A DNA stretch of 64,000 bases from the NCBI GenBank assembly GCA_025924315.1, contig JAICIO010000018.1, forward strand, positions 1-64,000, given 5' to 3'. Source of the DNA: Phycisphaerae bacterium (lineage in GTDB: Bacteria > Planctomycetota > Phycisphaerae > Tepidisphaerales > Tepidisphaeraceae). Within the stretch, counting starts at the first letter, position 1; each line of letters begins with the position of its first letter. The position numbers and the translations under genes were made by a program. Below the pieces are notes generated by a model. The model saw only the letters and a program-made list of their open reading frames with translations. It was not told where the DNA came from and did no database searches. Positions 61,456 through 62,051 of the stretch are shown here, one piece after another.

Positions 61456-61522
61456 CGAATCTGCTTGATTGTTCGTATTTTGTTTGGTACGCTCTACTGC
61501 GGCACATCTTCGGGGAGAAAAC

Positions 61523-61891
61523 ATGCCGGATCGAGCAAAATTTCAGGCCGCGGCGAGCAAGTTGGCGATCGAATCGAGTGTCGCGGAGGTTGCGTCGCGC
61601 TTGCTCGTAAATGCGCGGCCGGTGGTTGACGCTGGTTTACAAAAGTTGTCAAAGGTTAACGAAAGTTTACCCCCGCGAGCAAACGTCAAAACGAACCCAC
61701 CGCGAGCGCTGCGCCCGCGCGGGTTGGCGATCGCGCGACTGCTCGCGCAAGGCAGAAGCGTCTCCGAAATTGCCAGCGCGCTGGGCATCACGCGACAGGC
61801 GATTTGGAAATGGTCGCAGCGACCAGAAATCATCACGGAGGTGAACCGCGCCCACGCCGCGATGCTTGCCTCGGCCTCGCGAACCGGTTGA
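61523..61891 (+). CDS. Small helix-turn-helix protein
   Basis: 122 residues from ATG 61523 (GGGAGA upstream). The C-terminal part RGLAIARLLAQGRSVSEIASALGITRQAIWKWSQRPEI (about residues 68-105) is a homeodomain-like HTH, as in small terminase subunits or transposase-type regulators. The N-terminus is a helical, basic stretch. Its coding region contains a decamer array (61625-61670) and ends inside another (61887-61932), which may be its own operators. Function unknown. Confidence 0.75.
   Translation: MPDRAKFQAAASKLAIESSVAEVASRLLVNARPVVDAGLQKLSKVNESLPPRANVKTNPPRALRPRGLAIARLLAQGRSVSEIASALGITRQAIWKWSQRPEIITEVNRAHAAMLASASRTG
61625..61670. repeat. Decamer array 1 (GTTNAC-N4)
   Basis: Five hexamers GTTGAC, GTTTAC, GTTGTC, GTTAAC and GTTTAC begin at 61625, 61635, 61645, 61655 and 61665: an exact 10-base period. 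It lies inside the HTH gene. Confidence 0.9.
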
Positions 61892-61932
61892 CGCAGGTTG
61901 TCAAAAGTTAACGAAAGGTGACGTTTGTTGAC
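61887..61932. repeat. Decamer array 2 (GTTNAC-N4)
   Basis: GTTGAC, GTTGTC, GTTAAC, GGTGAC and GTTGAC begin at 61887, 61897, 61907, 61917 and 61927, an exact 10-base period. It straddles the stop codon of the HTH gene. Confidence 0.9.
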
Positions 61933-61985
61933 CTCAGATTCTCGGATGCGAAACGAAGCCACCGCGATTCTTCGCACGCCGTTTG

Positions 61986-62051
61986 GTCTGCGAAACCGCA
62001 AGCGACTCCGTTACCAGATCGCGATCCGAAGTTGCTTGCGGTTTCGCAGAC
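61986..62051. repeat. Family K palindrome
   Basis: GTCTGCGAAACCGCAAGCGAC is mirrored by GTTGCTTGCGGTTTCGCAGAC around a 24-base loop. Confidence 0.85.

Follow-up and report, generated by a model that had tools for sequence, protein, structure and literature searches.

Candidate binding arrays of 10-bp period in and near helix-turn-helix genes of a Phycisphaerae bacterium and its relatives

Tandem words about one helical turn apart are known from OmpR/PhoB-type boxes such as the Streptomyces PHO box, where GTTCAC-like words are bound by head-to-tail monomers. The PHO box has an 11-bp period, its proteins are winged-helix response regulators, and its regulons are promoter-linked. A different arrangement is that of phage P1 pac and PacA, in which several hexamer copies lie within the packaging-protein gene. 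In the rings of small terminases, adjacent helix-turn-helix (HTH) domains are approximately one turn of B-DNA apart, and pac of phage SPP1 extends across the beginning of the gene for the small terminase (PMC4737164). The channel of the phBC6A51 protein looks too narrow for DNA (PMC11331095). Here we describe arrays of short words with a period of 10 bp, found in and next to the gene of a small HTH protein of a Phycisphaerae bacterium (GCA_025924315.1). The window, that is, the whole stretch of DNA that was analysed, is 64,000 nucleotides long (contig JAICIO010000018.1, positions 1 to 64,000).

The HTH gene of the window and its two arrays

The gene (61523..61891, + strand) codes for a protein of 122 aa. 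An HTH_23 domain was detected in it at E 1.4e-7, consistent with the initial annotation of the host gene as one for an HTH protein, and the assignment is accompanied by a paralogue on contig C3 and by PHROG matches. The protein is composed of an N-terminal segment, a linker coded by an array and its tail, and the HTH in the C-terminal half; the codons of the recognition-helix region, ITRQAIWKWS, are at 61787..61816 (+ strand). The stretch at 61469..61522 (+ strand) is the probable promoter or leader of the gene, because it can be aligned by eye to the corresponding stretch in the C3 paralogue (TTTGGTA..., and CACATCTTC.GGGAG ahead of the ATG). Neighbouring genes code for a flagellar-hook-like protein and for a TIM barrel resembling xylose isomerase; DUF1501/DUF1549-type neighbours, recognised by eye, suggest a planctomycete-like bacterium.

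Array 1 (61625..61670, + strand) reads GTTGAC GTTTAC GTTGTC GTTAAC GTTTAC, with words starting at 61625, 61635, 61645, 61655 and 61665. It had been described as five GTTNAC words at 10-base steps. The spacing is indeed exactly 10 bp, while four of the five words agree with the pattern, the third being GTTGTC, and the fit to GTTNAC amounts to 24 of 25 constrained letters. When the HTH ORF was resampled synonymously 2000 times, the maximum was 20/25. As 24/25 was never reached, coding constraint does not make array 1, in agreement with what had been argued before. In the window, 11 pairs of GTTNAC words 10 bp apart were counted with at most one mismatch, against 1.8 expected, and nine of them fall in the arrays at 61625 and 61887. 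A three-word pattern, again with at most one mismatch, was found at 90 places in the same genome, compared with two for the reversed pattern. Array 1 is a genuine feature and no artefact of coding.

A second array and conserved tails after both arrays were absent from the initial annotation. Array 2 (61887..61932, + strand) reads GTTGAC GTTGTC GTTAAC GGTGAC GTTGAC, also at 10-bp steps, and the stop codon TGA of the HTH gene (61889-61891) sits inside its first word, GTTGAC. Tail 1 is located at 61687..61702 (+ strand; CAAAACGAACCCACCG, with AAAACGAACCCA from 61688) and is read by the ORF as KTNPPR, and tail 2 is located at 61949..61964 (+ strand; CGAAACGAAGCCACCG, with GAAACGAAGCCA from 61950). 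The tail consensus, AAAACGAA[G/C]CCA, lies about 24 bp past the start of the last array word. Within it, AACGAAnCCA was invariant across 26 aligned copies, and the tail alone gave 91 matches in the genome against three for the reversed control. The hairpin at 61986..62051, with 18-bp arms (GTCTGCGAAACCGCAAGC), is neighbourhood rather than a part of the array. Long hairpins with perfect arms, of several unrelated sequences, were seen near many array copies, including this one and those at six other loci.

The C3 paralogue (C3:60788-61087) has 49% identity to the window protein, the same helix TRQAIWKWS and the same word, and its gene carries array and tail at both corresponding places. In the window gene (contig C18) and in C3, the translated array and tail form a linker, which was unstructured in the predicted model of C3 (low confidence). 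A third gene, on contig C96, has TGTTCC words and a tail in the same reading frame. The translation of the array in C18 and C3, where the period of 10 bp makes the peptide repeat every 10 residues, would suit selection at the peptide or RNA level, as a linker repeat or a leader structure. We regard this as very improbable. The copies described below are mostly intergenic, and such non-coding copies largely refute it; neither a consensus RNA structure for the repeat nor an Rfam match was found, and the synonymous resampling also speaks against it.

Words and recognition helices in relatives of the gene

With a profile of the tail-coded segment plus the HTH, full-length relatives were found in two genomes of the same family that have tails, G020 and G010. 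Their genes have period-10 arrays near the starts, with words such as GTGCAAC, CTTCAG, CGCCAAA, GCGCACC, GTCCC and more. Of 26 family genomes, 18 had matches to a wider profile, and 46 genes were taken from these. Self-matches at lags of 4-30 were scored over 350 bp on the 5ʹ side of the HTH domain, a span that takes in the early coding part and the upstream region. Lag 10 was the best lag in 19 of the 46 relatives and in 5 of 82 control regions, and the mean lag-10 score was 9.8 in relatives against 5.0 in controls. A period-10 array at the gene start or just upstream was detected in 23 of the 46 (shuffle p<=0.02); these 23 include a few weak two-copy matches, and some of their arrays lie 200-300 bp upstream. 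The other half showed no clear array. Among 19 HTH genes outside the family, none had an array of the strength seen in the relatives. These genes are mostly LuxR-type, IS3-type and similar, so they serve as controls for HTH genes in general and not for distant members of the family.

For the 24 genes whose lag-10 score was 9 or more, word similarity was correlated with recognition-helix similarity (Mantel r=0.354, p=1e-4). The correlation also held after removal of three genes judged to be close duplicates (r=0.385, p=3.5e-4). Identical or near-identical combinations of helix and word were found in different genera: DRG[TS][IV]YRW with GCGCAACA, DRRTLYRW with GTCCC, and [RQ]KTLYRW with TGCCC. 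A shared ancestry of gene and array could account for part of this covariation. The helix TRQAIWKW was found, among the 46 relatives examined, in the genome of the window only.

A pattern of three GCGCAACA words, chosen from genes of the window's genome (G000) and G020, was present at five places in G000 and three in G020, copies outside those genes included; neither the reversed control nor any of the other 24 family genomes had it. Both genomes with these arrays have the DRG helix. Of six dispersed copies that were read, five had an inverted word 3ʹ of the array, and an A/T run followed the array. Arrays of GCGCAACA were also noticed upstream of genes read by eye as radA (G000) and ruvB (G020).

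Because the words of sister genes track the recognition helix, each gene seems to hold a copy of the binding site of its own protein. Judging from these sequence comparisons, we consider it probable that the array within the gene serves the encoded HTH protein as a binding array with multiple sites. Several findings count against this interpretation: the half of the relatives with no clear array, the arrays that lie upstream of the gene instead of in it, the location of most GTTNAC arrays away from HTH genes, and the arrays of G016. The latter genome has period-10 arrays of TGTTC type (TGTTCCATTT / TGTTCGATTT) at two loci, and no HTH gene matching a TGTTC-type word was found in it.

The tail motif was also abundant in certain genomes from other families of the class. 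At five loci there, it took the form AAAAATGCAAAACGAACCCAATTT and occurred in runs of CAAA[G/C]CCAAT words about 10-11 bp apart.

Dispersed copies and their possible origins

A sequence-only model of 82 positions was built from 26 copies, and arrays in the genome were counted from searches with the model plus fetched stretches. About 55 strong copies (E below 1e-6) were detected in the window's own genome, and no convincing copy of the window-type array was found by the same kind of search in 40 relatives. Arrays therefore occur in many unrelated places, mostly far from HTH genes, and they are present beside relatives of the gene as well. The link between array and host HTH protein proposed in the initial annotation is supported by the paralogues and by the relatives from other genera, but the array is more than a local operator. 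In the fetched stretches, five words were found in 33 of the 55 detected arrays, and a tail followed the array in 51 of the 55. Measured from where the last word begins, the tail lay 24 bp away in 34 of these 51 and 23-25 bp away in 43. Two subfamilies were distinguished by the linker, A (GCAG, AAAA, GAAA, GTTT) and B (CGCC, CGCT); the arrays of the window gene are A-like and those of the C3 paralogue B-like. The type-A array had no match in named genomes, among which its own genome is possibly not included.

The copies were mostly intergenic, and their orientation to the downstream gene was about even (13 co-directional and 12 opposite, tallied by hand on gene calls from a simple codon-usage script). 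A promoter element of the neighbouring genes was rejected because of this even orientation. Being intergenic and randomly oriented, the copies suggest a dispersed site and not the operator of a single gene. Close pairs of arrays were on the same strand in 18 cases and on opposite strands in none, and the direct pairs were often 138-281 bp apart. Mixed-type close pairs, A then B, made up 6 of 15. No inverted word was found to flank the GTTNAC arrays. Integron-like or CRISPR-like arrays were set aside, as neither an attC-type palindrome nor an adjacent recombinase was noticed while clusters of tails were read.

The number of copies, their mostly intergenic location, their even direction and their frequent direct pairing, together with other hairpin repeats near many of them, would suit a non-autonomous dispersed repeat of MITE-like or REP-like kind, which landed in the HTH gene by chance and has no functional relation to it. 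We think this quite unlikely, because relatives have arrays of other words at a similar position, because words follow the recognition helix across genera, and because no target-site duplication was seen by eye around the copies.

Six junctions of an insertion sequence with the ends CAAAAGTGCAGAAGTCGAG were seen (G000 contigs C6, C11, C40, C42, C45 and C127), and at each of them the element lies directly against a GTTGAC or ATTGAC word. Five of the junctions are in arrays, and the sixth, on C45, has one word before the element. A stretch of 27 bp is common to C6 and C11, which may represent both flanks of a single insertion. The position of the ends at a word in 6/6 junctions suggests that the arrays are a preferred target of the insertion sequence.

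These junctions also speak for another explanation, in which the composite sites are the ends of a mobile element, the array being the bound end and the tail the reaction site; the HTH gene would then code for the protein that survives from the element, and the single copies would be solo remnants. This explanation is compatible with binding and gives the dispersed copies another purpose. It agrees with the direct order array-tail, HTH, array-tail in the C18 and C3 genes, with the strand bias of the close pairs, and with a copy on C11 where a stretch resembling the 5ʹ part of the gene is retained and the HTH is missing. The protein, however, has no recombinase or nuclease domain, and neither an empty site nor a duplication was shown, in a comparison set that has no genome of the same genus. 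We judge the explanation unlikely on balance.

Kind of protein, proposed role and comparison with known systems

Both the window protein and the C3 protein matched PHROG profiles of the terminase small subunit. The C86 protein matched a PHROG small terminase at 5e-10 (protein 37-158, profile 6-124/161), and among PDB entries the family profile matched best to 2ao9 (E 1.4e-5), a nine-chain phage protein. For PF13022 (HTH_Tnp_1_2), C86 and G010:C8 were above the cut-off and the window protein below it; the former two extend further, whereas the window and C3 proteins end soon after the HTH. The AlphaFold models did not reach the quality that a fold search needs. At ten other loci, the neighbouring genes, read by eye, look non-phage. 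No relatives were found in viral contigs, and the only match in phage records was a weak one of C86 to small terminases of Bacillus phages. The sole relative by helix in a named genome was set aside, since it looks like an IS3-type transposase. As the short window protein is without the small-terminase core, a ring is doubtful for it, and with no core and no packaging neighbours it was not classed as a terminase subunit. By analogy, it may read DNA like a small terminase.

We propose that the family would represent orphan, chromosomal, small-terminase-like HTH proteins. The recognition helix TRQAIWKWS of each protomer would read a single GTTNAC word through the major groove. At a spacing of 10 bp, words lie on the same face of the DNA, so that adjacent protomers could sit next to each other on it, or it could be wrapped round a ring of them, and we infer that binding is cooperative. 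The array copy at the gene start would most likely provide autoregulation, and the approximately 55 dispersed copies of array and tail would be the targets of the protein throughout the genome. The tail, which is common to arrays of different words, probably serves a common partner. More tentatively, and as a possibility that we would not favour as a whole, domesticated small-terminase-like HTH proteins might mark chromosomal sites, with a sample of each protein's array kept in its own gene, words and helices diversifying together without cross-talk between paralogues, and the common tail linking every array to one shared machine.

If this site-marking scheme were true, the genomes would record a DNA-recognition code directly. 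If our interpretation of the arrays is right, many HTH genes carry their own sites in or beside them, specificity could be read from sequence, and the specificity of helix for word would be open to testing pair by pair. It would also point to a binding system that acts across the genome and is so far undescribed, in a little-studied group of bacteria. The occurrence of one word per turn would bear on the debate on whether small-terminase-like rings wrap DNA on the outside or thread it.

Among known systems, TerS of phages (SPP1/SF6) is similar in that it is an HTH protein of the same broad family with a recognition region at the start of its own gene, a place taken here by the candidate array. 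It differs in that the present genes are orphans beside housekeeping-type genes with no packaging genes, the words are regular 10-bp repeats with many dispersed copies, and the window protein is without the oligomerisation core. The phBC6A51 protein (2AO9; PF13022) is the top PDB match of the family profile, but the window protein is under the PF13022 cut-off and has no core domain. P1 pac differs in spacing and role, and no packaging genes are near the window gene. OmpR/PhoB-type boxes, with their 11-bp period and winged-helix regulators, are distinct from the 10-bp array described here. REP/BIME elements resemble the arrays in having tens of intergenic copies; unlike them, the arrays contain no palindrome and consist of a rigid array of words plus a tail, tied to a family of HTH genes.
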